DNA from: Flavisolibacter tropicus | Lineage (GTDB): Bacteria; Bacteroidota; Bacteroidia; Chitinophagales; Chitinophagaceae | DNA: 64,000 nt | Direction of reading: 5' to 3' | NCBI RefSeq assembly: GCF_001644645.1 | Contig: NZ_CP011390.1 | Coordinates: 1,488,001 to 1,552,000, forward strand | Part shown: piece by piece, positions 14,280-48,615 of the stretch | Layout of the letters: every line of letters starts with the position of its first letter | Position numbering within the stretch: the first letter of the stretch is position 1 | Program-made: the position numbers and the translations under genes | Notes under the pieces: model-generated | Database searches by the model: none | Told to the model about the DNA's origin: nothing | The model's input: only the letters and a program-made list of their open reading frames with translations

Positions 14280-14345
14280 TCTCTTGCACCTTTCCTGTAC
14301 CTAATCTGTACCTAGTCTGTACCTCTCCTGTACCTCTTCTGTAGG
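14280..14345. repeat. 11-bp tandem array A
   Basis: Six units of exactly 11 bp: TCTCTTGCACC, TTTCCTGTACC, TAATCTGTACC, TAGTCTGTACC, TCTCCTGTACC, TCTTCTGTAGG. The TGTACC core is conserved and the first four bases drift. Two other arrays with the same period but different units are at 27677-27731 and 48550-48615. Confidence 0.85.
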
Positions 14346-14707
14346 TAAGTCCGTACCAACTGCACAGATAAAGCCCTCTACCTGCCTTCCACATTCACTA
14401 CTCCTCCTTCCATCCTCCTATACTACTCCTACTTACATCCATCAATTGTAAAGTAAAATTCTAATGCAACCACCTGAGAACCAAGTCAAAGTGATGAGCC
14501 CTAATAAACTCTTTTAGGAAAAGCTGTTACAGAAACCAATTCAGCCTGATAAGGAGTGACATCAATACTCGCAGGCATGTTGCGAACGGAAGGCTGAAAC
14601 CTGCAACATGAAATCTTGTAATATGAAATTTTAAAATTTAGCTCCTTTTCTCCCTAGCCCCTATTCTCTCTGCAATACAATTTTTTAATTCATGGTTTTG
14701 CGCTTAC

Positions 14708-14738
14708 TTGCAGCGTTTTTTCTGTTGAACTAAATTTA
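14708..14738 (+). promoter_or_regulatory. Possible promoter of the 14,743 gene
   Basis: TTG (14708-14710), 20 bases, TAAATTTA (14731-14738), a 7-of-8 match to TAnnTTTG. It ends only four bases before the ATG, implying a leaderless or near-leaderless transcript if correct. Confidence 0.4.
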
Positions 14739-14742
14739 AGGC

Positions 14743-15666
14743 ATGCAACCTGAGGCAGATATTGTTGTAGAGAAGCAAGAATCAGCTGGCAAAAAGCTGA
14801 TCAAATTGCTCTTTAAGATCCTTATTACGGCGCTGTGTTTTTGGTATATCTCTACAAAGATCGATTTCTCTAAAGCCTTCGATGCCCTCTGGAAAGCCAA
14901 CTGGTGGTTACTTTTATTAGCGGTTCTTTCCTTCATGTTTTCAAAGCTGTTAGCGGCATTCCGACTCAACATTAACTTCCGTAATATTAATGTTAAACTA
15001 ACTGAATGGAAAAACATCAAGCTCTACTGGTTAGGCATGTTTTACAACCTCTTCCTTCCCGGTTCCATTAGTGGTGATGCCTATAAGGTTATTATACTCA
15101 ACCGTAAGCACAATGCCCCCTACAAAAAAACAAGTATAGCAGTTTTACTTGATCGATTTAGTGGTTTATTAGCACTTGGTGTGATCATGGCCGTATATGG
15201 GGCTATTGTATTAGATATCTGGTGGTGGGATGTGATTTTGATTGCTGGAGCTATCTTGGCCATTGCAGCGCTTTATATTGTCGTTCGATTCATCTTTAAA
15301 GATTTCTTACCAGGCTTCTGGCCTACCTTCCTCTGGGGGATGGCTGTACAGGTCTTCCAGGTGGTTTGCTTGTATTGCATACTCTTCAGCTTAAAAGATG
15401 TGTTTGCGGCCTTGGGAATGGCTCCTCATCAGCCTGAATGGATCTTTATCTTCTTGGTAGCATCCGTTGTTTCCGTGGCCCCCATTTCTTTAGGCGGTGG
15501 CTTAGGTACTCGGGAGTTTATCTTTGTTCAGGGTGCTACATTCTTTCATTTAGATGCTCATGTGGCAGTGATTATTAGCTTGTTATTCTATTTAAGTAAC
15601 CTGCTTTCTTCTATATGGGGCGCGTATTTTATTTTTCACGACCCGCTGAAAGAAGACAGTATATAG
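14743..15666 (+). CDS. Lysylphosphatidylglycerol synthase TM-region (UPF0104/YbhN-like) membrane protein
   Basis: Inner-membrane protein of 307 residues with about seven or eight hydrophobic segments and the family motif region YNLFLPGSISGDAYKVIIL (about residues 100-118) and LDRFSGLLALG. The family includes the flippase-like membrane half of MprF and AglD-type proteins of glycolipid pathways. It lacks any synthase domain. It lies nine bases before an ArnT-like glycosyltransferase, suggesting joint work on lipid-linked sugars (inference). Confidence 0.85.
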   Translation: MQPEADIVVEKQESAGKKLIKLLFKILITALCFWYISTKIDFSKAFDALWKANWWLLLLAVLSFMFSKLLAAFRLNINFRNINVKLTEWKNIKLYWLGMFYNLFLPGSISGDAYKVIILNRKHNAPYKKTSIAVLLDRFSGLLALGVIMAVYGAIVLDIWWWDVILIAGAILAIAALYIVVRFIFKDFLPGFWPTFLWGMAVQVFQVVCLYCILFSLKDVFAALGMAPHQPEWIFIFLVASVVSVAPISLGGGLGTREFIFVQGATFFHLDAHVAVIISLLFYLSNLLSSIWGAYFIFHDPLKEDSI

Positions 15667-15675
15667 CAACTACCT

Positions 15676-17265
15676 TTGTGCCCTGAAAAACTGACACAGG
15701 TGCCACAATCTAAAACGTTCGACAAATCTTTCTGGTTCTTAATCCTTCTTTCTGCCGTACTTCTTTTTCCTTCTTTAGGCAAAATGCCTTTATGGATCTA
15801 TGATGAGGTACGCAATGCAGAGTGTGCGCGTGAAATGTGGGAACGCCACGATTGGATTGTGCCCACTTTTAATGGAGAGCTGCGTACACTCAAGCCCCCC
15901 ATTCATTACTTCTTTATGTTTGGCGGCTTTGAACTTTTTGGTGCTACTGAGTGGGGCGCACGCATCTTTTCTGCAGTCTTTGGTGTTCTGACAATAGCCA
16001 TCACCTATATTTTTACGGCTCGTTATACTACTAAACTAGCAGCCTTTACCACAAGTGCAGTTCTGTTGGCTTCTTCCCACTGGCTATTTGAATTTCGGAT
16101 GTCAGTTCCTGACCCTTATTTGATCTTCTTTAATACCTTATCCATTTTTACAGCATATGCTTATTTCCAGGAAAAGAAGTTCAGCTGGCTACTGGTAAGT
16201 GCTGTTTCCTTTGGTCTAGGAATCTTGGCGAAAGGCCCTGTTGCTGTTGTCCTACCTGGGTTAGGTTTACTATCCTGGTTAATTTGGGAGAAGAAGTGGA
16301 AAGCCATCTTCCATTGGCACATCCTGGCTGCAGGTATAGTAATGCTGGCTATTTCAGTGCCCTGGTATGTATTGGTGCATCAAGCTACAAATGGCGAGTG
16401 GACAAAAGGCTTTTTCTTACAGCACAATCTTGGCCGTTTCTCTGAGCCTATGGAGGGGCACGGTGGTTTATTTATCATAGTGCCACTATTTGTGTTGGTA
16501 GGGTTGCTGCCAGGTTCTTCTTTTATTGGTGAAGCGGTTAAAGACTTTCGCCAGCGTTACAGTCAATCATTCCTTCGAATGGCGCTTTGCATTTCGCTAG
16601 CCTTTGTCGTGTTTTATAGTATTTCTGGAACAAAGCTCCCCAACTACCCTATGCCTTGTTATTCCTTTGTGGCTATTTTACTGGGCTATTTAATTTCGAT
16701 TGGTGTATCCGGACAAACTAAGATAAAACAGTATCCTTTCTGGATTCTATTGGTTATTAACCTGGCCATTCCTATTGCTGCTTATTTTGGTATCAAAGGC
16801 GAGGTAGAAACAAGAGGATTTGAAAACCAAACGCTCCTAACAGCTATTCTTACTGTTGCTGCGGCAGTATCACTTTATTTGCATAAACGCTCAGGATTTA
16901 AAACAGCCGTAACTGCTTTGTTTGGCTTTTATATCCTGTTCAATCTGGTTTTGTTGAACTACCTCTACCCCATGGTTTACAACAATAACCCACTTTCAAA
17001 GACCATAGATAAAGTCAAGCAGTACGATAATGTAGTTGCGTACCAGATCTTTCACCCTTCGTTTACTTATTACTTACCCAAGCGCGTTCGGGTTTTTGAT
17101 AATAAAGACTCACTACAACAATATTTAAAAACAAATGAAGCCTTAGTGATTTCTCGGGAAAAATTGCTTCCTGAATTAGAATCATTAAAACTAGATACGG
17201 TAGCTATTCATCACGATCTATTTGAAACATCTACTACTGTATTAATGACAAACAAGAAAAAATAA
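15676..17265 (+). CDS. ArnT-like family 39 glycosyltransferase
   Basis: Polytopic inner-membrane protein of 529 residues. The N-terminal periplasmic loop YDEVRNAECAREMWERHDWI (about residues 41-60) holds the DE catalytic region of PMT/ArnT enzymes, followed by LKPPIHYF and many membrane segments, with a soluble C-terminal part. Such enzymes move a sugar from a polyprenyl phosphate carrier to lipid A, protein or another acceptor; the acceptor here is unknown. The start is TTG at 15676; GTG at 15700 is an alternative. Paired with the preceding flippase-like gene. Confidence 0.88.
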   Translation: MCPEKLTQVPQSKTFDKSFWFLILLSAVLLFPSLGKMPLWIYDEVRNAECAREMWERHDWIVPTFNGELRTLKPPIHYFFMFGGFELFGATEWGARIFSAVFGVLTIAITYIFTARYTTKLAAFTTSAVLLASSHWLFEFRMSVPDPYLIFFNTLSIFTAYAYFQEKKFSWLLVSAVSFGLGILAKGPVAVVLPGLGLLSWLIWEKKWKAIFHWHILAAGIVMLAISVPWYVLVHQATNGEWTKGFFLQHNLGRFSEPMEGHGGLFIIVPLFVLVGLLPGSSFIGEAVKDFRQRYSQSFLRMALCISLAFVVFYSISGTKLPNYPMPCYSFVAILLGYLISIGVSGQTKIKQYPFWILLVINLAIPIAAYFGIKGEVETRGFENQTLLTAILTVAAAVSLYLHKRSGFKTAVTALFGFYILFNLVLLNYLYPMVYNNNPLSKTIDKVKQYDNVVAYQIFHPSFTYYLPKRVRVFDNKDSLQQYLKTNEALVISREKLLPELESLKLDTVAIHHDLFETSTTVLMTNKKK

Positions 17266-17266
17266 A

Positions 17267-17290
17267 GCCACTCCGAAGAATCGGAGTGGC
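17267..17290 (-). terminator. Terminator between convergent genes
   Basis: Perfect 10-bp stem GCCACTCCGA (17267-17276) / TCGGAGTGGC (17281-17290), loop AGAA. On the minus strand it is followed by TTTATTTTTTC, so it mainly serves the minus-strand DUF4382 gene; the plus side has no T-tract. Confidence 0.8.
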
Positions 17291-17316
17291 GTCTATCATT
17301 CATCAAAAAAACACAA

Positions 17317-18129
17317 TTATTGTAAGCGCAGGGTATCCACAGTAGTAACAACGTTGTTCGTTACAGTTACTCCTGTTTTTACTTTATTCGAAATTGCGCT
17401 GTCAGATGGCAAGAAATGAAGGTCATAAGTACCTGCATTTAAGCCTTTGATTATATAGCTACCAGCAGCTGTATAGGTGCTGGCTACTGTATCAGTTCCT
17501 TGAATGGCAAGAACAGAAGTACGTACAGAGTCTGGTAACACAAAACCACGGATAGAACCACCCATTGCTTGCATTACGGCACGGATCACAGGCTTCAACA
17601 TATACTTGCCGTTACCATTTCCATTACCAGTTTGATGTATAGACTTAGCCACATCAAAATCCAATAATAGTTTGTATGTGATGCCTTCATTCAAATCTTG
17701 GTGAATATTGATCTTTAATCCAGATTGTTGTGCACTTGGTGTAGTAAGCATATACTTTACGCTATCCACCAATACATAGTTATTAGTGCCAAGGATCAAA
17801 CGAATCTGTTCAATTTTACCTGGCTGAATATCAGCATCTGTCAATAAAGTATCCTTGTCATTTACTAAGTCCAGAAGGTTATAGGCACCTTTTTTTACGT
17901 TAGGCAAGCTTACCCAACCTTGAGATGTGTCTGTAGAATAATTGATGCGCACATCTTGTAAGTCAATGTATACAGCGTCATAATCCCCAGGATCATCTGT
18001 TAGAGCTACTTGTAAACGGGCTTTATCGGCCCCTCCTGTGCTGGAGTGTTCCTTGTTGCAAGACGTAAAAGTTAAAAGGGCAGCAGCGGTCAGTACGGAT
18101 AAACCATAGAGTGTTTTTCTAAGCATCAT
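17317..18129 (-). CDS. DUF4382 lipoprotein
   Basis: Exported lipoprotein of 270 residues with unknown function. The signal peptide ends in FTSC with lipid-attachment Cys24. The DUF4382 core is recognisable (RLQVALTDDPGDYDAVYIDLQDVRIN, about residues 38-63, and QIRLILGTNNYVLVD). The C-terminal region (about 195-270) looks like a carboxypeptidase-regulatory/prealbumin-like beta domain (IRGFVLPDSV, YTAAGSYIIKGLNAGTYDLHFLP). Located between fusA and a convergent glycosyltransferase; it has no obvious link to the ribosomal genes. Confidence 0.85.
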   Translation of the reverse strand: MMLRKTLYGLSVLTAAALLTFTSCNKEHSSTGGADKARLQVALTDDPGDYDAVYIDLQDVRINYSTDTSQGWVSLPNVKKGAYNLLDLVNDKDTLLTDADIQPGKIEQIRLILGTNNYVLVDSVKYMLTTPSAQQSGLKINIHQDLNEGITYKLLLDFDVAKSIHQTGNGNGNGKYMLKPVIRAVMQAMGGSIRGFVLPDSVRTSVLAIQGTDTVASTYTAAGSYIIKGLNAGTYDLHFLPSDSAISNKVKTGVTVTNNVVTTVDTLRLQ

Positions 18130-18231
18130 AAAATACTTTTAGGTGAGCAGGTGTTTGCTCGGTTAACATTACACTAACAGACCGTTAGGAATCCCTTAAG
18201 TTTAATCGCGCCCAAAACTTTTATTAAAACA

Positions 18232-18268
18232 AAGGGTTATACATACACAAATACTAGTTATAACCCTT
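18232..18268. repeat. 10-bp inverted repeat upstream of the DUF4382 gene
   Basis: AAGGGTTATA (18232-18241) and TATAACCCTT (18259-18268) form a perfect inverted repeat with a 17-base spacer, about 105 bases upstream of the gene start. It could be an operator or an RNA hairpin; nothing more specific can be said. Confidence 0.5.
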
Positions 18269-18308
18269 ATTTATAACCGCCTATTCTTGCCCATTAGGCA
18301 TAAAAAAA

Positions 18309-18330
18309 AGCCCCGCCAAAAAGCGGGGCT
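18309..18330 (-). terminator. Intrinsic terminator of fusA
   Basis: Stem AGCCCCGC (18309-18316) / GCGGGGCT (18323-18330), loop CAAAAA. On the minus strand it is followed by eight T residues. It lies 22 bases past the fusA stop. Confidence 0.9.
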
Positions 18331-18351
18331 CATATAAAAAGCAATGAATTA

Positions 18352-20499
18352 TTATTCAGCGCTCACTTTTCCTTTGCTCTTAGCAATCACTTCTTCAGCG
18401 ATGTTGTTTGGAGCTGGAGCATAGTGAGAGAACTCCATGGTAGATGATGCACGACCAGAAGATAAAGAACGTAATTGAGTTACGTAACCGAACATTTCAC
18501 TCAATGGAACTTTTGCTTTGATTACCTGTACACCAGCACGGGTATCCATACCTTCCATCATACCACGACGACGGTTCAAGTCACCTGTTACATCACCCAT
18601 ATATTGGTCTGGAGTCAATACTTCTACTTTCATGATTGGCTCAAGTAATACTGGTTTTGCTTTACGGGCAGCTTCACGGAAACCTTGCTTAGCACACAAT
18701 TCGAATGACATAGCATCAGAGTCAACCGCGTGGAATGAACCATCGTAGATTCTGATCTTCATGTTATCTACAGGGTAAGAAGCCAATGCACCGTTAGTCA
18801 TGGAAGCTTCAAAACCTTTCTGAATTGGTTGAATAAATTCACGAGGAATAGAACCACCAAAGATGTCGTTTACGAACTGGAAGTTCTTATCAGGATTTGC
18901 CTCTTTCCAATCAGCATCAACAGGTCCTAAAGTGAACATGATATCAGCGAACTTACCACGACCACCAGACTGCTTTTTCAGCACCTCACGGTGTTCAACA
19001 GTATTATGGAAAGCTTCTTTGTAAGCTACCTGAGGAGCACCTTGGTTTACTTCCACTTTGAACTCACGACGCATACGGTCAATGATGATTTCTAAGTGTA
19101 ATTCACCCATACCACGCAGGATAGTCTGACCAGTATCTTCGTCTGTGTTTACACGTAATGTTGGATCTTCTTCAACCAGCTTGGCGATAGCCATACCCAT
19201 TTTATCAACGTCAGCCTGAGTTTTAGGCTCAATGGCGATAGCGATTACCGGCTCTGGAATGAACATGTTTTCAAGAACGATTGGGTGGTTCTCATCACAA
19301 AGAGTATCACCAGTTTTGATTTCTTTAAAACCTACAGCTGCACCAATATCACCTGCTTCAATGAAATCAATTGGGTTTTGCTTGTTAGCAAACATCTTCA
19401 TGATACGAGAGATACGCTCTTTCTTACCGCTTCTTACGTTCAATACATAAGAACCAGCATCTAACTTACCTGAGTAAGCGCGGAAGAACGCCAGACGACC
19501 TACGAATGGGTCAGTCATGATCTTGAACGCCAAGGCTGCAAATGGTTCTTTTGCATCTGGCTTACGTGTAATTTCTTCACCAGTGTTAGGATCTGTACCT
19601 GTGATGGCTTCGATATCTACTGGAGAAGGCAGGTAACGACAAACCGCGTCAAGTGCAGTTTGTACACCTTTGTTTTTGAAAGAAGAACCGCACATCATTG
19701 GAACGATGCTCAGGTCGATGGTAGCTTTACGGATAGCTTCGTGAATTTCAGCTTCAGAGATGCTGTCTGGATTATCGAAGAACTTCTCCATCAAAGTATC
19801 ATCGTATTCAGCAACAGCTTCAATCAACTGAGCTCTCCAATATTCTACTTCTTCTTTCATATCTTCTGGTACAGGAATCTCATCGAAGGTCATACCTTCA
19901 GTTTCCATATGCCAAATGATACCTTTATTAGTAATTAAGTCTACTACACCTTTGAAGTCATCTTCAGCACCGATTGGCAATTGAAGAGGAACAGCTTTAG
20001 CACCTAACATTTCACGCACCTGCTTAACTACGTTTAAGAAGTCAGCACCGGAACGGTCCATTTTGTTTACGAAACCGATACGTGGTACACGGTAACGGTT
20101 TGCCTGGCGCCATACAGTTTCAGACTGAGGTTCAACACCATCCACAGCAGAGAATAACGCAATCAAACCATCCAATACACGCATAGAACGCTCTACTTCT
20201 ACAGTAAAGTCCACGTGTCCTGGAGTATCAATGATGTTGAAATAATATTTTTTAGTGTTTGCATCAGCCTTACCTTTTACAGTAGGGAAGTTCCACTGGC
20301 AGCTAACAGCAGCAGAAGTAATAGTGATACCTCTTTCTTTTTCCTGTTCCATCCAGTCAGTGGTAGCAGCACCGTCATGTACTTCACCAATTTTGTGAAT
20401 CATACCGGTGTAGCGTAAGATACGCTCAGTAGTAGTGGTTTTACCGGCATCAATATGCGCGGCAATACCAAAGTTGCGTTGAAATCTCAAGTCTGCCAT
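18352..20499 (-). CDS. fusA: Elongation factor G
   Basis: Ribosomal translocase GTPase, 715 residues. G motifs: AHIDAGKT (14-21), [21 protein letters not shown] and NKMDRSGAD; domains II-V follow, ending in [23 protein letters not shown]. It lies apart from rpsG, with a histone-like gene on the other strand in between, and has its own promoter element and terminator, so it is probably a single-gene transcript. Confidence 0.98.
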
Positions 20500-20870
20500 G
20501 AGTATTAAATTGATTGTTGTGTACTAATTTTTTAATGTGGATTTCCATACCTTAGCAGCGCCCAATTGCTTTACCTGCCTGCATTTCCGCCCACTTTTCA
20601 AATATCAGATTTGTATTGAATTGTAAACTCAAGTTCATTTAAACTTAACATTCACCTTTCATCACTCTCGAATTTGAGGGTGCAAAGGTAATGAAATACA
20701 GGTCAATTCCGCATCTTAACGAAACTTTGTTTGTTAAAGATGAAAGCAATTATGTATAGCACGTAGTTAAGGAATAGTACTTTACCTTCGCACAATTTTT
20801 GCAATTCACTTACAATCGTTGTATTTTTCCAACATTGAAAATTTATTAACCCTCTCAAAACCCATTAAAC
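20500..20870. other. Divergent promoter region between fusA and the histone-like gene
   Basis: 371 bases with no gene. The left part is the approximately 180-base fusA leader. The -7 element for fusA is at 20683-20690. On the plus strand TACCTTCG (20783-20790) matches the -7 consensus at 7 of 8 positions and may serve the histone-like gene, but no -33 box is found at the right distance. Confidence 0.55.
20683..20690 (-). promoter_or_regulatory. -7 promoter element of fusA
   Basis: Reads TACCTTTG on the minus strand, the same octamer as at rpsJ and rpsL, and is followed by GCACCC. The -33 region is poor: no TTTG lies 19-21 bases upstream. It implies a leader of about 180 bases. Confidence 0.6.
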
Positions 20871-22019
20871 ATGGCAAAAGCAACCAAGAAAGCAGCCGCT
20901 AAAAAAGGTGGCCAAGCGTCTAAAGGCGGTGGCCGATCTATTTCAAAAGGCGCATCTAAGGGTGCAACAAAAACAGCATCTAAAAAAACCTCTAAAAGCG
21001 CAAGCAAAAGCGCTAGCAAAGGTGGATCTAAAGCTGCATCCAAATCAGTAAGCCGTGGCGGTGCTTCTAAAGGAGCTTCTAAAGCCGCTTCTAAATCTTC
21101 TACCCGTAGTTCGGTTAGCAAAAAAGCTGCCGCTAAAAAAGCAGCCCCTGCAAAGAAGGCAGCAGCTAAAAAGGCAGCTCCGAAAAAGGCAGCAGCTAAA
21201 AAAGCCGCTCCTGCTAAGAAAGTTGCAGCCAAAAAAGCTGCTCCTGCTAAAAAAGGCGGAGCCAGCAAGGCAGCAGCAAAAAAAGGTGGCAGTTCTAAGA
21301 GTGCATCTAAAGGTGCTTCTAAATCAGCAGCTAAAGGCGGTCGTAGCGTAGCAGCTAAGAAAGGTTCTAAAGCTGCCGCTAAAAAAGCAGCCCCTGCAAA
21401 GAAGGCAGCAGCTAAAAAGGCAGCTCCGAAAAAGGCAGCAGCTAAAAAAGCCGCTCCTGCTAAGAAAGTTGCAGCCAAAAAAGCTGCTCCTGCTAAAAAA
21501 GTTGCCGCTAAAAAAGCAGCACCGGCTAAAAAGGCAGCTGCAAAAGGTGGTAGCAAAGCAGCAGTAAAAACAGCTAGCAAAGGTTCCAAAGCAGCAGTAG
21601 CTAAAAAAGCAGCACCGGCAACTAAAGGAAGCAGTGCTACAAGAACTGGTGGTTCTTCTGCAACACGTTCTGGCGGCACTTCTGCTACTCGTACTGTAGC
21701 GCCTAAACCAAGCCGCAGCACTACTCCTGCTAAAACGCGCAGTGCATCTGGTGGCCGTCGTACCAACGTAGGTAATCGTTCTACAAATGGCACATCTGGA
21801 TTAGGTCGTGATAATGTTGCAGAAACTACTCGCACTACCAATACAGAAGATATTACGTCTATAGATCAACCAGTTGGTGATTTAAGTACAGGCCTGGGTG
21901 ATACAGTTGGTAGCCCCGCTCCTGACTTTAACAATGAAGCTATTGATGTAAATACTAGCGATATTGATATTACCAGTGGTGGTGCAGATGAAGGCGATAT
22001 GAACAACAATCGTTCATAA
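20871..22019 (+). CDS. Lys/Ala-rich histone H1-like protein
   Basis: Predicted nucleoid-associated protein of 382 residues. Residues 1-120 are Ser/Lys/Gly-rich (SKSASKSASKGGSKAASK); about 80-255 are tandem AAKKAAPAKK-type blocks like the C-terminal tail of eukaryotic H1 and bacterial AlgP/Hc1-like proteins. The last 80 residues are Thr/Asp-rich and acidic (EDITSIDQPVGDLSTGLGD). No folded domain is seen. The gene lies on the opposite strand between rpsG and fusA with its own strong terminator. Two identical 133-bp blocks inside it suggest recent internal duplication and likely length variation among strains. Confidence 0.85.
   Translation: MAKATKKAAAKKGGQASKGGGRSISKGASKGATKTASKKTSKSASKSASKGGSKAASKSVSRGGASKGASKAASKSSTRSSVSKKAAAKKAAPAKKAAAKKAAPKKAAAKKAAPAKKVAAKKAAPAKKGGASKAAAKKGGSSKSASKGASKSAAKGGRSVAAKKGSKAAAKKAAPAKKAAAKKAAPKKAAAKKAAPAKKVAAKKAAPAKKVAAKKAAPAKKAAAKGGSKAAVKTASKGSKAAVAKKAAPATKGSSATRTGGSSATRSGGTSATRTVAPKPSRSTTPAKTRSASGGRRTNVGNRSTNGTSGLGRDNVAETTRTTNTEDITSIDQPVGDLSTGLGDTVGSPAPDFNNEAIDVNTSDIDITSGGADEGDMNNNRS
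21123..21255 (+). repeat. 133-bp exact direct repeat, copy 1, within the histone-like gene
   Basis: Identical base for base to 21369-21501, offset 246 bp (82 codons, so in frame). It encodes the AAKKAAPAKKAAAKKAAPKK block series. Identity at the DNA level, including synonymous positions, points to a recent duplication or gene conversion. Confidence 0.9.
21369..21501 (+). repeat. 133-bp exact direct repeat, copy 2, within the histone-like gene
   Basis: Second copy of the block at 21123-21255, in the same reading frame. Recombination between the two copies would delete or add exactly 82 codons. Confidence 0.9.
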
Positions 22020-22031
22020 GTAAATCACTAT

Positions 22032-22074
22032 AAATAAAAAACCCGTTTTGAGTGTCAAAACGGGTTTTTTATTT
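22032..22074. terminator. Strong bidirectional terminator after the histone-like gene
   Basis: Core stem AAAAAACCCGTTTTGA (22036-22051) / TCAAAACGGGTTTTTT (22055-22070), loop GTG, extended by AT pairs to 22032/22074. The stem is perfect for at least 16 bp and ends in T runs on both strands. Confidence 0.92.
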
Positions 22075-22112
22075 ATATCTACTACGTCAGTAAATAGTGC
22101 TCAATAAAAAAA

Positions 22113-22128
22113 GCACCCAATTGGGTGC
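22113..22128 (-). terminator. Intrinsic terminator of rpsG
   Basis: Stem GCACCC (22113-22118) / GGGTGC (22123-22128), loop AATT. On the minus strand it is followed by seven T residues. It lies 32 bases past the rpsG stop and shows that the str transcript ends before fusA. Confidence 0.8.
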
Positions 22129-22160
22129 CTTTAGTAATATATATCAAAAGAATTGACTTA

Positions 22161-22628: not shown

Positions 22629-22715
22629 CGAATTTTAATTTTTAAGTCACCGCAGGGGCAGAACGTCTTCAAGTATTAAAACTTTACTCTGTACTGCGGT
22701 CGTTTTTATAAATAA

Positions 22716-27416: not shown

Positions 27417-27935
27417 GTTCAATTTATCTTTAACGTTCACTGGACTACATCATTTAAAAAAAAGCCTGCAATATATTTTCAATTTGACTACAATCTGCTC
27501 TTGTATTAAGATCTATAGTTTCAATTACTCCTAGTATTTAAAAGCATTGATTGGCTTAAAGTGCACTTTAAAAATGGGCGACTTTAAGCCATTGATATTA
27601 TTAACCTTACTAGTGGTTTAAAAAGCCACTAGCTAAATTCAACCTACATACATTTACTATATACCTAAATGCACCTTTGTTCGAGACTTGTTCGAGACTT
27701 GTTCGAGACTTGTTCGAGACTTGTTCGTAGCAGCCCGAAGGATTCCCGAAGAAGCCCCGACGAAAGGTAGAACAAAAGGAAGGGAAAAGATTCAAGAAAT
27801 CGTTTCGTTTGCTTGAGTTGGAAAGGCTTGTTAAAATAATAAAGTAAAACTTGGACTCTGCTCAAGACACCTGATTAGCAGCGTTTTAGTAACAGCCCCT
27901 TACTATAAGTATACTGTTTTCTGCTATTAAAAAAG
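27417..27935. other. Intergenic region between convergent genes
   Basis: 519 bases with no credible gene. It holds 11-bp tandem array B (27677-27731). Short open frames on the minus strand across the array (encoding SRTSLEQVSNK-type repeats) are by-products of the repeat. No clear hairpin terminator is seen for either flanking gene. Confidence 0.7.
27677..27731. repeat. 11-bp tandem array B
   Basis: Four identical 11-bp units TTGTTCGAGAC (27677-27720) followed by a diverged fifth, TTGTTCGTAGC. Period identical to arrays at 14280-14345 and 48550-48615, unit sequence unrelated. Confidence 0.9.
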
Positions 27936-39782: not shown

Positions 39783-39928
39783 TTTTAGAGTAAACTCTTC
39801 CGTATTCATCACATCACTTCTGATTTTTTTGACATTTTTTCTACATTAAGCGACACATTTTAGAGTTTTATCGTTTTTTTTATCACTTTTATGCTTCATC
39901 TTCTTTTTCTTTGTTGAAAATTTACTTT

Positions 39929-42118: not shown

Positions 42119-42124
42119 TACAAG

Positions 42125-42153
42125 AAAAATCCCGCTCAGTGAGCGGGATTTTT
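42125..42153. terminator. Bidirectional terminator after glutamine synthetase
   Basis: Stem AAAAATCCCGCTC (42125-42137) / GAGCGGGATTTTT (42141-42153), loop AGT. T runs on both strands. It lies between the glutamine synthetase stop and the stop of the convergent metal-cluster gene. Confidence 0.92.
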
Positions 42154-43005
42154 TTATTTTGAAATTGTCTTCTTCTTTTTTCGCTGAAGTGCATTTAAGA
42201 AAATGTGTTCATAGCCAATCATGAACTGCCTCCTGGAAAGCCGATAGATATCACTGCTTAGCTCAAAGCGATAACCCAAATTCAATTTACCTGTACTCTT
42301 AAAAATAAACTGAATAGAGGGCGCAAGATCAACATAATACGTCTCCCCTTCAAAGCCAAGGTTTCTTCCACCCAACAATTCAGCATACAGATTCACATTT
42401 GTCTGATCATAATCAGCATACTCCAAAGGAAACAGTAAATAGCCTGCCGATAAAGAATAGTTAAGTGCCCGATAAGCATACGAGTCTGCTTCAGCACTCT
42501 TTTTCGTCTTTTGATTCAGCACTTCCATTATACTGCCCGTACCCGAAATGGCTAACTTATTCCAAAGCTGAGTAGCTATCAACCCGGCCTGTATACCACT
42601 TTGGTCGCCCATCATATTAAGCTCATTGTGCTCTAACTGATTACGACTATAAGTAGCAGCAGCAAAAGCAGCCATCCGGAAGTGTTTGTGTACTTCATCA
42701 TTAGATAAAAAGCGGTATTTACCATATACACGGGCTCCTTCCCATTTAAATTGCTCATCCTGCATGTCAGAAAAGAGAAGCCCTCCGTGAACCATCCACT
42801 TCTTATCCAATCCTAACATTACCTCAGGCATATGTCGCTGAACTATTTGACCAGAATGCAATGCGCGCTCAAACATCGAAGTCATTTTTACACTAATTGA
42901 CTTAGATGGCATATTAGAAGCTGGCTCTGTGTAGGGATACAACTCTTGCGCACAGAGCTGACTGCCCACACTTAGCAAGCCAATCAAAAACAATAAATTC
43001 TTCAT
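42154..43005 (-). CDS. Outer-membrane beta-barrel-like protein of the metal cluster
   Basis: 283 residues from the ATG at 43005 (MKNLLFLIGLLSVGSQLCAQ, a signal peptide); an in-frame ATG at 43041 lies within the upstream hairpin and is rejected. The mature part has alternating aromatic beta strands (KWMVHGGLLFSDMQ, VNLYAELLGGRNLGFEG, KLNLGYRFELSSDIYRLSRRQFMIGYEHIF), typical of an outer-membrane barrel. It follows two HMA-domain genes and may be the outer-membrane part of that system (inference). Confidence 0.7.
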   Translation of the reverse strand: MKNLLFLIGLLSVGSQLCAQELYPYTEPASNMPSKSISVKMTSMFERALHSGQIVQRHMPEVMLGLDKKWMVHGGLLFSDMQDEQFKWEGARVYGKYRFLSNDEVHKHFRMAAFAAATYSRNQLEHNELNMMGDQSGIQAGLIATQLWNKLAISGTGSIMEVLNQKTKKSAEADSYAYRALNYSLSAGYLLFPLEYADYDQTNVNLYAELLGGRNLGFEGETYYVDLAPSIQFIFKSTGKLNLGYRFELSSDIYRLSRRQFMIGYEHIFLNALQRKKKKTISK

Positions 43006-43015
43006 GATTATAAAT

Positions 43016-43037
43016 AGCCCCTGCGGATGCAGGGGCT
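43016..43037 (-). terminator. Hairpin after the 43,046 HMA gene
   Basis: Perfect 9-bp stem AGCCCCTGC (43016-43024) / GCAGGGGCT (43029-43037), loop GGAT. On the minus strand it is followed by ATTTATAATC, a weak T-tract, so partial termination before the last gene of the cluster is likely. Confidence 0.65.
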
Positions 43038-43045
43038 GCATTGAA

Positions 43046-43588
43046 TTATATTACAACATGATAAATACGGGCTTGCTCTGCTACGTTTTCCTTGGCGCAG
43101 CAGGCTGCTGCCTTGCCAGTTTGTACGCAGGTAAGCTTTGAAGCACTACTCCACTTCTTGAACTCTTTTGCAGAAACAAAGCTTTTATCTACAATACTAA
43201 GTGTTGTAGCACCATTAAGCTGTTTGCCTGCTGCATTTAAAAAGTGAAAATATTGCCCTCCCAACTCAAAGTGCTTGTCTTTCTCAATAGTTACATTATT
43301 AAGATCAACATTCACTTTTAAGCTTGCCACAGAGAAGCCTGCATCTTGTACGGCTTTACTCAAAGCATCAAAATCTACAGCTGCACCAGACTTAAATGTC
43401 AAATTGTATTGCTGATTTTTAATATCCACTTGTACTTTTTCAACAAATGGCACGCCTTCCAAAGCCACTTTTACAGCCTTTGAGCACATAGAACAGGTTA
43501 GACCGCTGGCTTGTAGAGAAGCTTTAGAAAATTGCGCATTGGCTTGCATACCTATAAGGAAAGCAGCCAGCATAAGAATACTTTTCAT
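43046..43588 (-). CDS. Exported heavy-metal-associated (HMA) domain protein
   Basis: 180 residues with a signal peptide (MKSILMLAAFLIGMQANAQ). The HMA domain covers about residues 22-95, with metal-binding Cys32 and Cys35 in GLTCSMCSKAV. The C-terminal part (100-180) is a second small domain ending in a Cys motif (TCVQTGKAAACCAKENV). It probably binds copper or a similar thiophilic metal in the periplasm. It lies 18 bases after the preceding HMA gene. Confidence 0.85.
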   Translation of the reverse strand: MKSILMLAAFLIGMQANAQFSKASLQASGLTCSMCSKAVKVALEGVPFVEKVQVDIKNQQYNLTFKSGAAVDFDALSKAVQDAGFSVASLKVNVDLNNVTIEKDKHFELGGQYFHFLNAAGKQLNGATTLSIVDKSFVSAKEFKKWSSASKLTCVQTGKAAACCAKENVAEQARIYHVVI

Positions 43589-43606
43589 ATGAAAGCTGTT
43601 TTAAGG

Positions 43607-44113
43607 TTATGACTTTTTGCAACAAGCAGCGCCTTCTTTTCCAGCACCCGCAGTTTGAGCATCATGACTGCACTTGCCGTCTTTGCAGCAATCCATGCTT
43701 GCTGTACACTTACCATCAGCACAGCATTTCTTACATTCTTCTTTTGTGCAGGAAGTACCATCGCAACAGCTCTTCTGATCGCCTACTCTTTCATATTTAC
43801 AACAATCGTGAAGTTTGTTATAAGCCTCGTCTGTAGCTTTATAATTAGGAGTATCGTATCCAACAGCAGCTATACCTTCCTGGATTTTTGCTTCGTTGGA
43901 AGATTTGCTGTTGTATTTAATAGTTAGCGATTTTGAGTCTACATTCCATTGAGCATAGGAAGCTCCGGCATTTTTTGCAGCCGTTTCAATTTTATTCTTA
44001 CACATACCACATTCACCCGACACTTTAAATGTGGCAGACTTTGTTTGTGCATTTACAAGTTGAGCGAACAGAATAAACAAAGAGGAGAAAAGAACTATTT
44101 TAAGCGTTTTCAT
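43607..44113 (-). CDS. Exported HMA protein with metallothionein-like Cys-rich tail
   Basis: 168 residues: signal peptide 1-22 (ends VNAQ), HMA domain about 25-92 with Cys35 and Cys38 in SGECGMCKN, then a tail (101-168) with 14 cysteines, many as CC pairs (DCCKY, SCCDG, KKCCADGKC, DCCKDGKC, AACCKK). The architecture suggests a periplasmic metal chaperone joined to a metal-sequestering tail. Metal identity cannot be read from sequence; copper is the usual HMA ligand. Middle gene of the cluster. Confidence 0.85.
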   Translation of the reverse strand: MKTLKIVLFSSLFILFAQLVNAQTKSATFKVSGECGMCKNKIETAAKNAGASYAQWNVDSKSLTIKYNSKSSNEAKIQEGIAAVGYDTPNYKATDEAYNKLHDCCKYERVGDQKSCCDGTSCTKEECKKCCADGKCTASMDCCKDGKCSHDAQTAGAGKEGAACCKKS

Positions 44114-44192
44114 TTTTTAAATTTTTACTTGAATAAATAATATAACCTGCCTTAATAGCAAAAGCAGCCAATGACTAGATAAAACATTGTGT

Positions 44193-44582
44193 CTATAGTC
44201 TGAAAACGCAATTATTCAAGTAAGTATCCTGTTTAGATAGAAGAGGTGGACCATGTATTCGATCCTCCTGAGTAGAAACTGATTTTATTACAGGCAATAA
44301 AAACTCGGGAACAAAAGAAGCGGGAATTGCAGGCGCACTAAACAGGTAAATAGCTGTAGCGGACATAACCTGGTCCTGTTTCAGCTTCATAACCTTTACC
44401 TCATCGCGGCAGCAACCATGTTTTTTTTGAGTAGACATGCCGCACTTCTCACACTTCTCCTTTTCAGAAGTTCCTAGCTCCCATGAATGAAACTTGTTCA
44501 TGCAGTAATGCAGGTTTACAGTAAAACCTGTGCTTACTACAAAGTACAAAGTCAATAATATGGAAGCCGCAAACCTCTTCAT
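44193..44582 (-). CDS. HYC_CC_PP family protein
   Basis: 129 residues with an N-terminal hydrophobic segment (ILLTLYFVVSTGFTVNL). The family-defining motifs are all present: HYC at 25-27 (NLHYCMNKF), a CxxC at 44-47, CC at 57-58 (KHGCCRDE) and a late PP (HGPPLL). The family is Bacteroidota-specific with unproven function; the Cys/His content and neighbours suggest a metal-related role. It has a near-perfect promoter directly upstream and probably leads the cluster. Confidence 0.85.
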   Translation of the reverse strand: MKRFAASILLTLYFVVSTGFTVNLHYCMNKFHSWELGTSEKEKCEKCGMSTQKKHGCCRDEVKVMKLKQDQVMSATAIYLFSAPAIPASFVPEFLLPVIKSVSTQEDRIHGPPLLSKQDTYLNNCVFRL

Positions 44583-44590
44583 GAACGTAA

Positions 44591-44621
44591 CAAAGTTATA
44601 GGAGCTTTATTATAAAGCAAA
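44591..44621 (-). promoter_or_regulatory. Promoter of the metal cluster
   Basis: On the minus strand: TTTG (44618-44621), exactly 19 bases, TAACTTTG (44591-44598). Full consensus match in both boxes. It ends eight bases before the ATG of the HYC_CC_PP gene, so the leader must be very short or absent. Confidence 0.75.
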
Positions 44622-44652
44622 CCTGATTTTTGTCAAGGATCAAGATTAAGTA

Positions 44653-46662
44653 TCAATTAACAAAGCTCCAGAAAATCCCTAGGCGTAGCACTAAGCCAGG
44701 ATAAGGGTAATCGGGTGCAGAAAAGTTTTCATTTGTGAACGTAATGCCATTTGAAAACTTAAATGCATTCAAATTTTCCGCTCTTATGTATGCCTGGAAA
44801 CCACGAATGCGGAAATTGAAATAAGCATGGATATCAGGCTTGTTCTTAATAGAAGTAGTATCCTGAAATACAAACTGTCCATTGACAGGCGAATAGTTAT
44901 CTGCATCAAAAGGTGTATGATAGCGAATATCAATCCCGGTAGACATAAACAGGTTTCTAAAGAAATTACCCTCAAATGCTATGCGGTTACGTGTTAAAAA
45001 CAAAGGAACATTTACATCCACATTACCGGTTTTCTGCTGCAAATATGCCTCCATGTACCAGTTCACATGACGTGCAACTTTGAATGTTTTAAAAGCGCTA
45101 ATACGTAATATGTTGAATAAGGCACTCTCCTGCTCTACGGTATAAAAGTTTTTATAATAGAGGTAGTTACCCATTAGAAAATAATCGCCCCCGAGACTAA
45201 GCTTCAATTTAGGGTTTGAAATGGTTGCAAAAATGTGGGAGGTATTTTCTTTATTCAACGACAATGTTGGATTAAAGTTAAAACTACTCAGCCCTTTTTG
45301 AATATACGCCGGAGATCGGTTACTGTTTTCAAAACCTACTTGTAGACTACCTAACTTGCTACTAAGCAAACGCTGCAAGCTTATATAGGCATGATAGTCG
45401 CCTTGATTGTATCCACTAACATGCAAACGTCCGGATGCTAACATATCCCATTTCTGGTTTCGGGTACGGTTGCGATACTCACCATGTAAAACGGTATTGA
45501 CAAAGTTTTCTTTGTTACCGTCCTTCACCTTTCCATTTAACAATTGCAGCTCTGCCCCAAGCTTTAAAAACTGTTGCAGGTTCTTGGCATCTGGGAACGT
45601 GTAGATGGAAAAGTCATTATTTAACTCACGCCAACGGTCTTGTAAATACACTGTATCCCCTGTGTGTAATTGAATATTATAGTAGGCGGGATAATAGGTT
45701 GTATCAACTGAATAATCCTGAAATGTATAGCGGTTGCGGCGATACTGGAAAGTATGTTCAAACCGGAGGCGCGGATAAAACAACGGTATAACAGTTGAAT
45801 CCGTTACAATTGAATCTTTCTTACCGAAATCATATTGCTGACGGAGCAATCCAACAAACTCGCGGTAATCATTACCTGTAACCAAGCTTACACCGAACGG
45901 AGTACGCGTATAATCTTCGTTTTGAGGGCCAAACTTGGTAGGAATTGAAATCCGTTCTTCAAACACAGGATCATCCATATAGTTCCTGTCATTACGAATG
46001 CCACCATTTTCAGCTACCTGTAGCTTATTACCAATTAAGGCAACATAATTATTGTAACGCTTATTGGGTGATTGATACCAGGAAGTAAAGAGATAATTAT
46101 TGTGATTCGAACGTTGGTTTTTCAAATACCCGGGACTATTGATCAATCGATAGTGCAATCCAATATTCCAGTAAGGTTTAAAGTTTTGCGTATGATGTAC
46201 TTGAATGATTTGCTGCGTTTTGCTTCCTAATAAATAGGCCAGCTCTGTATAAGGCCGGGTAGTATTAAAAAACTGAATCTTATCTGCTGTCCATTTATAT
46301 AAATCCAAAGCATGAAACCCGGGATCAAAACCAGTACGAATAATTGGAGCAAATAAAATGGAATGGGCCGCTGTACCCGTATTACCTAAATAATTATAAG
46401 TAGTGGGAACCGGAAATCGTCGATAAAAATCGTTAATGGAGGAGTCCAACGAATAACTGCGTGTAGAGTCCAGATAACGGGCACTAATAGTTATACTGTC
46501 CTCAAACTTATTCCGACGTTGTAAGCTATCATTGTTTCCACCACCGCCGCCACCTTTAAAGCGGTTACCAATATCCCGAATAACGCCTTGCGCTTGTACA
46601 CCAGGTGCACTAAGCAAGAGCATTAAAGCAAAAAGGAGTTGGTATATACGTTTAATCTGCAC
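44653..46662 (-). CDS. Putative porin (Bacteroidota outer-membrane barrel)
   Basis: 669 residues with a signal peptide (LLFALMLLLSAPGVQAQG) and a glycine run (FKGGGGGGNND) after it. The mature part is a large beta-barrel-like sequence rich in aromatic, alternating strands, matching the Bacteroidota putative-porin family (long N-terminal plug-like part, RFPVPTTYNYLGNTG). Substrate unknown. It begins three bases after the purine nucleoside phosphorylase stop, so the two are probably co-transcribed; nucleoside uptake is a guess only. Confidence 0.8.
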   Translation of the reverse strand: MQIKRIYQLLFALMLLLSAPGVQAQGVIRDIGNRFKGGGGGGNNDSLQRRNKFEDSITISARYLDSTRSYSLDSSINDFYRRFPVPTTYNYLGNTGTAAHSILFAPIIRTGFDPGFHALDLYKWTADKIQFFNTTRPYTELAYLLGSKTQQIIQVHHTQNFKPYWNIGLHYRLINSPGYLKNQRSNHNNYLFTSWYQSPNKRYNNYVALIGNKLQVAENGGIRNDRNYMDDPVFEERISIPTKFGPQNEDYTRTPFGVSLVTGNDYREFVGLLRQQYDFGKKDSIVTDSTVIPLFYPRLRFEHTFQYRRNRYTFQDYSVDTTYYPAYYNIQLHTGDTVYLQDRWRELNNDFSIYTFPDAKNLQQFLKLGAELQLLNGKVKDGNKENFVNTVLHGEYRNRTRNQKWDMLASGRLHVSGYNQGDYHAYISLQRLLSSKLGSLQVGFENSNRSPAYIQKGLSSFNFNPTLSLNKENTSHIFATISNPKLKLSLGGDYFLMGNYLYYKNFYTVEQESALFNILRISAFKTFKVARHVNWYMEAYLQQKTGNVDVNVPLFLTRNRIAFEGNFFRNLFMSTGIDIRYHTPFDADNYSPVNGQFVFQDTTSIKNKPDIHAYFNFRIRGFQAYIRAENLNAFKFSNGITFTNENFSAPDYPYPGLVLRLGIFWSFVN

Positions 46663-46665
46663 GAA

Positions 46666-47487
46666 TTAATTGACGCTTCTTATTAGCTCACGAAATATAG
46701 TAGAGAACTTAGGTTCTGCTGCTGTTGCTGCTTCCAAAACCTCTTCATGCGTTATAATGTTATCTTCCTCACGGATACCGATATCAGTAATTACGCTCAT
46801 GGCAAATACGTCCATACCCATATGTACAGCAGTTATTACCTCCTGAACGGTACTCATTCCTACCGCATCTCCACCTAGCACATGAATCATTTTATACTCA
46901 GCCCGTGTTTCAAAAGTTGGACCTGTAACACCAAAGTACACGCCTTCTTTTAATTCAATACCTTGCTCAGCAGCTATTGCTTTAGCTTTAACAATTAATT
47001 CTTTTTTATAGGGCTCGCTCATATCAGGAAAACGAGGTCCTAAGCGATCGTCATTTTTACCCAATAGAGGATTTACAATGGCCAAGGAAATATGATCATT
47101 AATGATCATTAAATCCCCTACTTTCAAACCAGGCTTAACCCCACCAGCGGCATTTGAAATCAATAATGTAGTAACACCCAATAGTTTTAAAACTCGAATG
47201 GGAAATACAACTTCCTCTGCCCGGTAGCCTTCATAAAAATGAAAGCGGCCAGCCATAGCTATTATAGGTTTATCGGCAATTGTACCAATGATCAACTTAC
47301 CATGATGTCCCTCAACGGTAGACACCGGAAAGTGTGGAATATCCTCATAGGGTATTTCCTTTTCAATTACAATTTCTTTGGTAAAGTTTCCTAAGCCACT
47401 TCCCAACACCACTGCTGTTCTAATGGGTTGAGAAATCAACGGTTGTAAAAAAGCCGCGGCTGCTTGCAGTTTTGAATATGCGTCCAT
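46666..47487 (-). CDS. Purine-nucleoside phosphorylase
   Basis: Phosphorolysis of inosine/guanosine to base and ribose-1-phosphate (trimeric PNP family). It is 273 residues: VLGSGLGNF, GHHGKL-type phosphate loop (VEGHHGKLIIG), GRFHFYEGY, ISNAAGGV, GPTFETRAEYKMI and AVGMSTVQEV. The start lies 12 bases from a TATCTTTG element. Followed by the putative porin. Confidence 0.95.
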   Translation of the reverse strand: MDAYSKLQAAAAFLQPLISQPIRTAVVLGSGLGNFTKEIVIEKEIPYEDIPHFPVSTVEGHHGKLIIGTIADKPIIAMAGRFHFYEGYRAEEVVFPIRVLKLLGVTTLLISNAAGGVKPGLKVGDLMIINDHISLAIVNPLLGKNDDRLGPRFPDMSEPYKKELIVKAKAIAAEQGIELKEGVYFGVTGPTFETRAEYKMIHVLGGDAVGMSTVQEVITAVHMGMDVFAMSVITDIGIREEDNIITHEEVLEAATAAEPKFSTIFRELIRSVN

Positions 47488-47498
47488 AAAAAGTGCCG

Positions 47499-47506
47499 CA
47501 AAGATA
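47499..47506 (-). promoter_or_regulatory. -7 promoter element of the PNP gene
   Basis: TATCTTTG on the minus strand, 11 bases before the ATG. It sits just inside the end of the upstream gene's 3' flank. No clear -33 box. Confidence 0.5.
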
Positions 47507-47517
47507 ACCTTACTGTG

Positions 47518-48327
47518 TTAATATGGGTATTTATATAAGTCACAATATTCTTCATCACACACCAGCTTACGCCAGACGGGGTGTTGCCACACATCTTTGT
47601 AATCATACCATCGCCCATTGACCTTTATCTTGTTGTACACCAAACGTGTACCATGACTATAATCGGTATACCAATTGGCATGCCCGGTGTAGAGAGGCTG
47701 AATAGGTTTTCCATTTAACTGGTGCCAGCCATAGATAGCGACTTTATCAAGCCGATTTTCCTTAACCAGTTTCCCGGTAGTAACAATATCCTTCTTAATT
47801 CCACCTATTAAACCTTTCTGCCCTTTTCGCTGGCCTTCTATGATCAGGTGATGTTGATACATGGTGGGTGTGCTATCCCGAAAGGCAAACATAGGTACAG
47901 GTTCCAGCTTTACTTTTGCGGCTGCATAAATAGCATCGACCAGTTTTCGCGTGGGTAGAAAACAATGGAATTGATCAGCCAGTTTCTGCGCTGTTATAGG
48001 CGTAAGACAAACCCGCACCCAATCTGTATTCGTTCCCACACTCAAATAATCTGGTGTTACATATATAATAGCTTTTATCGTTTTCTGACTGGCCGTATCG
48101 AAAAGTTGTAAATGTACAGGTGTCAATTGCTGTAAGAATGAAGGCATATTTCCCTTCGAAATCTCGGCAATAACCATGGAATCTCTTTTTCGCCAATCAT
48201 TGGCTGCGCCCTCTTTAAATAAAATAGTACCCGCCTTTCTATCTGAAGTTGTTTTTTGTAAAACCAGCTTAGGAGCAGACGAACATCCTATAACAATAAA
48301 TCCTAAAAAAACTAACAGCCCTTTCAT
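47518..48327 (-). CDS. Hypothetical lipoprotein
   Basis: 269 residues from the ATG at 48327; an in-frame ATG at 48354 would add nine residues before the signal peptide and is less likely. MKGLLVFLGFIVIGCSSAP is a lipoprotein signal with Cys15. The mature part is not recognised; C-terminal text includes YGWHQLNGKPIQPLYTGHANWYTDYSHGTR and a WRKLVCDEEYCD motif. The periodic aromatic residues suggest an extracytoplasmic enzyme or binding protein, but no catalytic motif can be named. Confidence 0.7.
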   Translation of the reverse strand: MKGLLVFLGFIVIGCSSAPKLVLQKTTSDRKAGTILFKEGAANDWRKRDSMVIAEISKGNMPSFLQQLTPVHLQLFDTASQKTIKAIIYVTPDYLSVGTNTDWVRVCLTPITAQKLADQFHCFLPTRKLVDAIYAAAKVKLEPVPMFAFRDSTPTMYQHHLIIEGQRKGQKGLIGGIKKDIVTTGKLVKENRLDKVAIYGWHQLNGKPIQPLYTGHANWYTDYSHGTRLVYNKIKVNGRWYDYKDVWQHPVWRKLVCDEEYCDLYKYPY

Positions 48328-48523
48328 ACTGGAAAGATCATAAAAAATATACATGAGTTGACAAAAGACAAAAAAATCAAATTAGACAAAAGCTGCCTTT
48401 CTGATTTTGCATTGACATATTCAATAAGGTGTCGAATTAAATAACCACTATACTTACCTTATTGTGCGCGGCTTTGTTTCGATATTTATGATCTTTTTCT
48501 TCCCTATAACACACATTTATCCT

Positions 48524-48560
48524 GTATATATCTCGTCTCTATTAGGGGCGAGATATATAC
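48524..48560. repeat. 12-bp inverted repeat joined to array C
   Basis: GTATATATCTCG (48524-48535) is the exact reverse complement of CGAGATATATAC (48549-48560), the first unit of array C with one flanking base; the loop is 13 bases. Either strand could fold into a 12-bp hairpin. Confidence 0.85.
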
Positions 48561-48615
48561 GAGATATATACGAGTTATATACGGGTTATATACGGGTTAT
48601 ATACGAGATATTGCA
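48550..48615. repeat. 11-bp tandem array C
   Basis: Six 11-bp units: GAGATATATAC twice, GAGTTATATAC, GGGTTATATAC twice, then a degenerate GAGATATTGCA. The period equals that of arrays A and B; the unit sequence does not. Confidence 0.9.

Follow-up and report, generated by a model that had tools for sequence, protein, structure and literature searches.

Arrays of tandemly repeated heptamers (TAACTGA) have been described in Beggiatoaceae, Cyanobacteria and some Bacteroidetes (MacGregor, 2015; PMC4679880). Tandem units of 5–11 nt have been surveyed in prokaryotes, with heptanucleotides the commonest in most genomes (Mrazek et al., 2007, as summarised in PMC4679880), and tandem repeats of 6–11 bp are over-represented in the intergenic DNA of some archaea (PMC4060949). 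These papers, and the others given below by PMC number, are cited from excerpts, and our comparisons extend to the excerpted text. Here we describe three intergenic arrays, A1, A2 and A3, that repeat in steps of 11 bp within a 64,000-nucleotide stretch of the Flavisolibacter tropicus genome (NCBI RefSeq assembly GCF_001644645.1, contig NZ_CP011390.1, positions 1,488,001 to 1,552,000 of the forward strand; hereafter the window). Each array is the tandem-unit segment of a dispersed intergenic family, a different one in each case, in a single Bacteroidota species, and two further families of this kind, A4 and A5, were found in a sample of the same genome.

The heptamer arrays resemble these elements in consisting of short tandem units of fixed length that are intergenic, numerous per genome and patchy among relatives, and the mixed heptamer assemblages of some Bacteroidetes spacers are comparable to what we observe here. 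They differ in step, which is 7 bp there whereas A1–A3 repeat at 11 bp, and the F. tropicus genome carries both classes. Palindromic arms made of 11-mers, a shared hairpin tail and diverged arrays locked in one frame are not described in the excerpted text of PMC4679880. The surveys of prokaryotic tandem repeats, again as excerpted, include 11-nt units but count simple arrays in bulk, without dispersed elements built on an 11-bp frame. An exact tandem step of 11 bp is also found in the operators of SARP regulators, which follow a 7+4 plan (PMC5930380), in the sites of CarH (PMC9304148) and in the ParR/parC system of plasmid R1 (PMC9426499); the A1 logo, with 8 conserved and 3 variable positions, is comparable with the SARP plan. 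Each of those sites has from two to about ten repeats, at a single promoter or centromere, and a cognate protein, whereas the elements described here number more than 100 copies and fall into families with unrelated units, and no cognate protein was identified for them.

Repetitive extragenic palindromic (REP) sequences, bacterial interspersed mosaic elements (BIMEs), REP doublets forming hairpins (REPINs) and miniature inverted-repeat transposable elements (MITEs) are dispersed, intergenic, non-coding repeats. Our families share these properties, and A2 is palindromic, A3 partly so and A1 not; A2 and A3 have inverted arms, a possible counterpart of the terminal inverted repeats of MITEs. They differ in their internal modular arrays of 11 bp, and no link to a REP-associated tyrosine transposase (RAYT) or other transposase was found. 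Further short tandem sites of fixed step include PhoB-type 11-bp sites, omega heptads, MetJ 8-bp boxes and the short tandemly repeated repetitive (STRR) heptamer arrays of cyanobacteria. Searches of open-licence PMC papers showed, among the papers listed, no account of bacterial 11-bp arrays in dispersed families. The heptamer half of the picture is already known. The elements are best filed as dispersed intergenic repeats with modules of fixed length, in which a step of 11 replaces the familiar 7. To our knowledge, the cause of preferred unit lengths in bacterial intergenic repeats is unsettled, and the excess of 7 has no agreed cause.

Three Arrays and Their Dispersed Families

Tandem Repeats Finder (TRF) and inspection of the sequence agree with a sequence-only reading of the window, made earlier, that A1, A2 and A3 all repeat at exactly 11 bp. 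TRF placed A1 at 14295–14343 (4.5 copies), A2 at 27677–27727 (4.6 perfect copies of TTGTTCGAGAC, 100% matches) and A3 at 48549–48611 (5.7 copies, 92% matches). By inspection, A1 has five CTGTA-type units in 11-bp register from 14295, preceded by a degenerate unit from 14284. The parts of the three elements in the window are as follows.

14284–14349, + strand: A1 array, 11-bp units of consensus CTGTACCTNNY (8 conserved and 3 variable positions), the last unit being CTGTAGGTAAG
14272–14386, + strand: core of the A1 dispersed element, comprising the array and a conserved right flank, TCCGTACCAACTGCACAGATAAAGCCCTCTACCTGCC; 38 genome sites
14424–14513, + strand: A1 tail, common to A4 elements, with the motif AAAGTGATGAG at 14488; limits approximate
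27677–27731, + strand: A2 forward arm, made of four perfect TTGTTCGAGAC units plus one that is altered
27732–27764, - strand: A2 inverted arm, three reverse-complement 11-mers, AGCCCGAAGGA TTCCCGAAGAA GCCCCGACGAA
48524–48535, - strand: A3 inverted left arm, GTATATATCTCG, which pairs with the first array unit
48549–48613, + strand: A3 array, six 11-bp units, five of CGRGWTATATA type and the last CGAGATATTGC
48505–48625, + strand: A3 dispersed element, comprising hairpin, array and right end GAGATATTGCAGAATGAGGG; 12 genome sites, limits approximate

The sequence-only reading had missed the inverted arm of A2, the inverted left arm of A3, the right flank of A1 with its tail to about 14513, and the dispersal of all three elements. 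It had placed the arrays correctly: A1 has a gene for ribosomal S10 protein on one side, A2 lies in the spacer between convergent genes, and A3 lies between divergent genes, one of which is sucC, with the array ending about 300 bp upstream of it. It was also right that the units are mutually unrelated, as the best matches among A1, A2 and A3 units over all rotations and both strands were 7/11 (p 0.17–0.19 against letter-shuffled units); a common origin of the three units, considered and set aside, is not shown by matches at this level. Variants of the A3 and A5 units match at 9/11 (p 0.003 among 45 pairs tested), which is suggestive only. The short palindromic core that had been noticed in each unit is real but within chance, a 4-bp palindrome being present in 54% of random 11-mers, so that three units out of three would have one with a probability of 16%.

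Across the genome, a 115-base A1 query gave 39 matches at 38 sites (76–100% identity), a two-unit A2 pattern allowing up to 2 mismatches matched 45 times, counting both strands, at 17 sites, and the A3 element gave 18 matches at 12 sites. The arrays are therefore parts of dispersed elements and not slippage events private to three spacers. A4, recognised by two GTTACTCCGTA cores 22 bp apart, has 84 matches at 47 sites in the whole genome, and A5, with TCACCCGTATC, has 28 matches at 20 sites (control 0 in both cases); together they occupy 64 sites (47 + 20, 3 shared). A1, A4 and A5 may belong to one superfamily, because A1-type units sit inside two A4/A5 arrays. Markov-shuffled noncoding DNA (112.6 kb five times and about 161 kb once) held no array at period 11, 22 or 33, and reversed-pattern controls, including those for A2–A5, gave 0 matches in the source genome, so that chance is excluded for the arrays; a control pattern matched once in two relatives.

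Unit counts and contexts rest on 30 of the 38 A1 sites and 16 of the 17 A2 sites. A1 copies carry 3–8 units each, mostly 4 or 5 (30 copies), and the A1 logo was drawn from 144 units of these copies. In A2 copies, forward 11-mers are followed by a centre and then by reverse-complement 11-mers, giving a palindrome of 11-mers. The unit logos of A2, A3 and a family in a second genus (G022, below) are biased, because their units were chosen by regular expression. A1 flanks are mutually unrelated, so copies were compared by ungapped anchoring; the outer flanks are long intergenic mosaics, put together from a limited set of modules (several types of heptamer array, A1 and other recurrent pieces) in an order that differs between sites. 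By eye, several A1 copies (L039, L040, L048, L059, L063, L067) adjoin a multi-copy gene starting MAKQVGPVFITGTIDGIIFYKLGD or similar, and the single copy of this gene that was scanned had no Pfam match.

No match to A1, A2 or A3 was found in 37 related genomes (17 of the same genus, 5 of the same family and 15 of the same order), of which 29 reach a completeness of at least 90% with contamination no higher than 5%. It follows that the families are of recent origin in the lineage, or that elsewhere they have been lost or have changed past recognition. Searches of viral contigs with one A2 pattern and one A1 pattern gave 0 exact matches, and an A1 pattern likewise gave 0 matches in a collection of contigs from named genomes.

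Period 11 as the Second of Two Steps

The periods of tandem arrays were surveyed in a sample of 1.264 Mb (21% of the 5.94-Mb genome), made up of the window and 60 stretches of 20 kb each, at one fixed score threshold and for periods of 5–40, with masked runs excluded and "intergenic" meaning outside long open reading frames (ORFs). Among the 99 intergenic arrays, 50 had periods of 7, 14 or 21, 30 had periods of 11, 22 or 33, and 19 had any other period. Were all non-heptamer periods of 8–40 equally likely, about 5 of these 49 arrays would be expected at multiples of 11 against the 30 observed, a comparison that includes non-independent arrays of the same family. One shuffled control set yielded three arrays, 0 of them at multiples of 11. 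Of the 50 arrays inside ORFs, 16 had a period that is a multiple of 7 and 6 had one that is a multiple of 11. The 7-bp class is exemplified in the window by one array.

4068–4094, + strand: heptamer array, ATTGACC x 3.9

A self-match spectrum of the same sample, counting exact 6-base matches and leaving out masked letters, gave noncoding peaks of 618, 459, 326 and 163 at lags 7, 14, 21 and 28 and of 322, 391, 159 and 171 at lags 11, 22, 33 and 44, against a median of 86, with 65 at lag 10 and 70 at lag 12. The intergenic excess at 11 that the sequence-only reading had put forward as its check is thus present, and the shared 11-bp step with unrelated units is a property of the genome and not a chance agreement between three of its arrays; lag 11 still stood at 236 against 82 once the window was left out. 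Lags 11 and 22 formed no peak in coding DNA (280 and 309, median 390), where lag 7 rose modestly (538). A smaller noncoding rise at lags 8 and 16 (189 and 170) perhaps marks a third class of step.

In samples of 120–200 kb from six relatives, 27 of 41 intergenic arrays had a period of 7 or 14 and 2 of 41 a period of 11, with period 7 recurring in five of the six genomes. Period 7 being both the stronger in F. tropicus and recurrent among these relatives, 11 is the second of two steps. One relative, G022, of another genus in the same family, has a dispersed 11-bp family of its own, with pairs of TTTCAAGYATG (131 matches on both strands, control 0; at least 38 sites among the matches listed). 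Since its unit is unrelated and period 11 accounts for so few of the sampled arrays, the step recurs but is not general in the sampled relatives; the second genus with its own 11-bp family is a single case. Absence from relatives, which the sequence-only reading had counted against its proposal, accordingly holds for the F. tropicus units (0 of 37) but not for the class. A candidate 33-mer organisation, with the 11-bp frame continuing downstream of the G022 array, was not supported (z <1). Another relative, G013, has three period-18 intergenic arrays (L165, L166, L168), two with ACAGGTTTT ends.

Frame Lock and Whole-Unit Change

A4 and A5 elements carry, by eye, about 14–16 units in one frame, and these units are diverged, with 150 of 252 eleven-mers distinct (one site counted twice). 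In the array part of 17 distinct elements, self-match was raised at all twelve multiples of 11 from lag 11 to lag 132 (z 8.4, 10.5, 5.4, 5.6, 4.0, 2.6, 2.8, 2.2, 2.0, 2.8, 2.6 and 2.6), and lag 8 was the sole non-multiple of 11 with z >2 among lags 5–132. Copies also often differ by whole 11-bp units in A1 and A4, where gap lengths of 11 and 22 exceed their neighbours. Gaps of 11 numbered 154 in A1, against 58 of length 10 and 54 of length 12, and 87 in A4, against 32 and 49. The suggestion that each array presents its motif on one face of the DNA holds for short arrays only. With 10.5 bp to a turn, a strict step of 11 bp shifts each unit by about 17 degrees, which carries an array of about 15 units most of the way round.

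Hairpins and Folding

A downstream tail that ends near CTAAAGATACAAAA is common to several A1 and A4 elements and contains a hairpin that is shifted or degenerate in some tails, the window copy included (1 of 5 pairs in the fixed register). Among 29 distinct tails, 82 of 145 cells are paired in this register against 66.2 with shuffled partners, a level reached in 0 of 5000 shuffles and indicative of covariation; 6 of 24 tail-motif matches that have no upstream array were left out. In A3, five of the twelve copies (L170–L172, L176, L179) pair 14/14 in their arms with two different arm sequences, and the other seven reach 11–13/14 at best, not always at the expected place. The arms of A2 are made of the same kind of unit, but their in-register pairing does not exceed that of arms whose units are shuffled inside the element (p 0.39 for identity, 0.16 with wobble; elements with fewer than two paired units left out). 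We therefore rejected a precise A2 hairpin.

Folding scores differed between families. The window A3 copy gave z -3.1, one A2 copy -3.6 and the window A2 copy a weak -2.0; two G022 copies folded better than shuffles (-4.5 and -3.2), and neither the A1 region (-0.2) nor an A4 array (+0.7) folded well. No Rfam match at gathering score was found in the window, and seven loci gave only a chance microRNA match (E 0.19).

Genomic Setting

Classed by spacer, A1 copies fall in 14 divergent, 13 tandem and 2 convergent spacers (30 loci, 1 unclassed), A2 copies in 5, 8 and 2 (16 loci, 1 unclassed) and A3 copies in 8, 3 and 1 (12 loci). Copies thus lie mostly in spacers holding at least one gene start; convergent spacers make up 17% of sampled spacer bases, a background that omits stretches with more than 200 N. 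These counts keep copies lying mostly within a mechanical ORF of at least 80 amino acids (7 of 30 for A1, 5 of 16 for A2, 1 of 12 for A3). Copy-bearing spacers are long, with medians of 727 bp (A1), 554 bp (A2) and 518 bp (A3).

Of the 24 genes flanking A3 copies, 18 were scanned against Pfam, four of them giving no match, and sucC makes a nineteenth. The genes beside A3 copies include an ECF-type sigma factor, an arginase, a thymidylate synthase, a histidine kinase, an ABC transporter and a protease. In 16 other members of the genus with a sucC locus, the nearest ORF upstream of sucC is 73–560 bp away, at most 254 bp in 14 of them, and the gene next to sucC in the source genome has no match at the sucC locus in any of the 16, so these loci offer no readable empty site for an insertion of A3 at sucC.

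Competing Explanations

On our reading, these elements are dispersed repeats of intergenic DNA that change by the gain or loss of whole 11-bp units, an account that, taken as a whole, we consider evenly poised between right and wrong, the putative binding protein being its weakest part. An element would be copied to new intergenic sites via recombination or an unrecognised transposition route, and its array would then grow or shrink one unit at a time by slippage or unequal exchange. The least certain step, proposed by analogy, is that the 11-bp frame is kept because each unit serves as a site for a tandem-binding protein with a fixed step of about one turn; a protein binding tandemly in the manner of SARP, CarH or plasmid R1 ParR would let units drift in sequence and not in spacing. 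Such a putative protein would explain a frame kept despite sequence drift, and a preferred copying step would explain the unrelated units and the parallel 7-bp class. The sequence-only reading is thereby confirmed in what it observed and supported in part in how it interpreted the arrays.

Several results weigh against this account. No binding protein, transposase or target-site duplication was identified, and the period-7 class requires a separate explanation. The genes beside A3, the one family examined in this respect (18 of 24 flanking genes plus sucC), share no function; the window A3 array lies some 300 bp from sucC, and 16 other members of the genus that have the sucC locus contain no A3 match genome-wide. 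When whole 350-base A4/A5 pieces were used in place of the array part, multiples beyond 55 were weak (z 1.1–1.9), and the 17 elements behind the frame lock are not independent events, because copies share ancestors. Gaps at multiples of 11 are a minority, 137 of 1188 in A4 (108 expected) and 237 of 1997 in A1 (181.5 expected), with a slight excess in A3 (18 of 158, 14.4 expected) and G022 (16 of 133, 12.1 expected); most gaps are of other lengths because the aligned stretches hold unrelated mosaic DNA, and the pairs compared are not independent.

Neutral slippage is a serious though doubtful alternative. Replication or repair in these bacteria would favour duplications of short stretches in steps of 7 and 11, arrays would arise wherever they are tolerated, and recombination would later disperse them incidentally. 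This alternative suits the two sharp steps with unrelated units, the recurrence of heptamers in relatives (27 of 41 arrays in six genomes) and the four identical units in a row of the window A2, a sign of recent expansion, and a 7-nt polymerase contact has been proposed for the heptanucleotide excess (Mrazek et al., 2007, as summarised in the excerpted text of PMC4679880). Yet diverged A4 arrays retain their frame, most sampled 11-bp arrays fall in a few dispersed families rather than in many private arrays, and just 2 of 41 arrays in the six relatives have period 11. Eleven is also the A-form helical repeat, and each unit might add one A-form turn to a long hairpin of folded RNA or single-stranded DNA. 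The A2 palindromes of 11-mers (one copy at z -3.6), the five A3 copies pairing 14/14 with two arm sequences, the window A3 (z -3.1) and G022 (z -4.5, -3.2) scores and the covarying A1/A4 tail hairpin are all in keeping with this. A helix of this kind might account for A2, A3 and G022, but it would leave out A1 and A4, which fold poorly; the A2 arms pair no better than shuffled units, the window A2 is weak (z -2.0), seven A3 copies pair at 11–13/14 and not always as expected, and the Rfam searches gave a single chance match. We rate this reading as improbable.

It is more improbable still, in our judgement, that each family consists of dedicated operators marking the regulon of one tandem-binding regulator. 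Operators of 11 bp are known (PMC9304148, PMC5930380, as excerpted), and convergent spacers hold few of the copies (2 of the 29 classed for A1, 2 of 15 for A2, 1 of 12 for A3). The neighbours of A3 are functionally unlike one another, however, which speaks against a regulon, and the spacers are long (medians of 518–727 bp), the window A3 stands well away from sucC, A3 is missing from relatives, and conserved sequence reaches beyond the array. Mobilisation as REP/REPIN-type elements by a RAYT (Y1) transposase is scarcely credible: the genome has three Y1 transposase loci and A2 is palindromic, but none of the three 3.2-kb loci holds a two-unit A1–A5 pattern at fewer than 6 mismatches.

Beyond the account of dispersed repeats that change by whole units, there may be, in members of one bacterial family, a class of dispersed intergenic elements for which 11 bp is the structural frame, beside the parallel 7-bp class. 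Unit sequences would vary freely and independently between families and genera and the spacing would stay fixed, because a host factor would read or write the elements in 11-bp steps; this factor might be a protein that binds DNA in tandem or forms filaments, or an enzyme that copies 11 nt at a time. We regard this generalisation as unlikely. A genome with two sharp steps and several unrelated 11-bp families, together with a second genus, allows a testable comparison, in which a copying step predicts new 7- and 11-bp duplications and, given a binding protein, the frame should persist as the sequence drifts. There is also a practical warning, that a tandem array beside a promoter may be a copy of a dispersed repeat and not an operator.

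Other Observations

The three Y1 (RAYT-like) loci (L188, L189, L190) are flanked by other hairpin repeats, for example GGCCTCAGCCAGGAGGCTGAGGCC. In the window, 20871–22019 encodes a protein with a weak, sub-threshold Pfam match to histone H1-like HC2; it contains repeats of 15, 18 and 33 bp, of a Lys- and Ala-rich kind, at 21118–21545.

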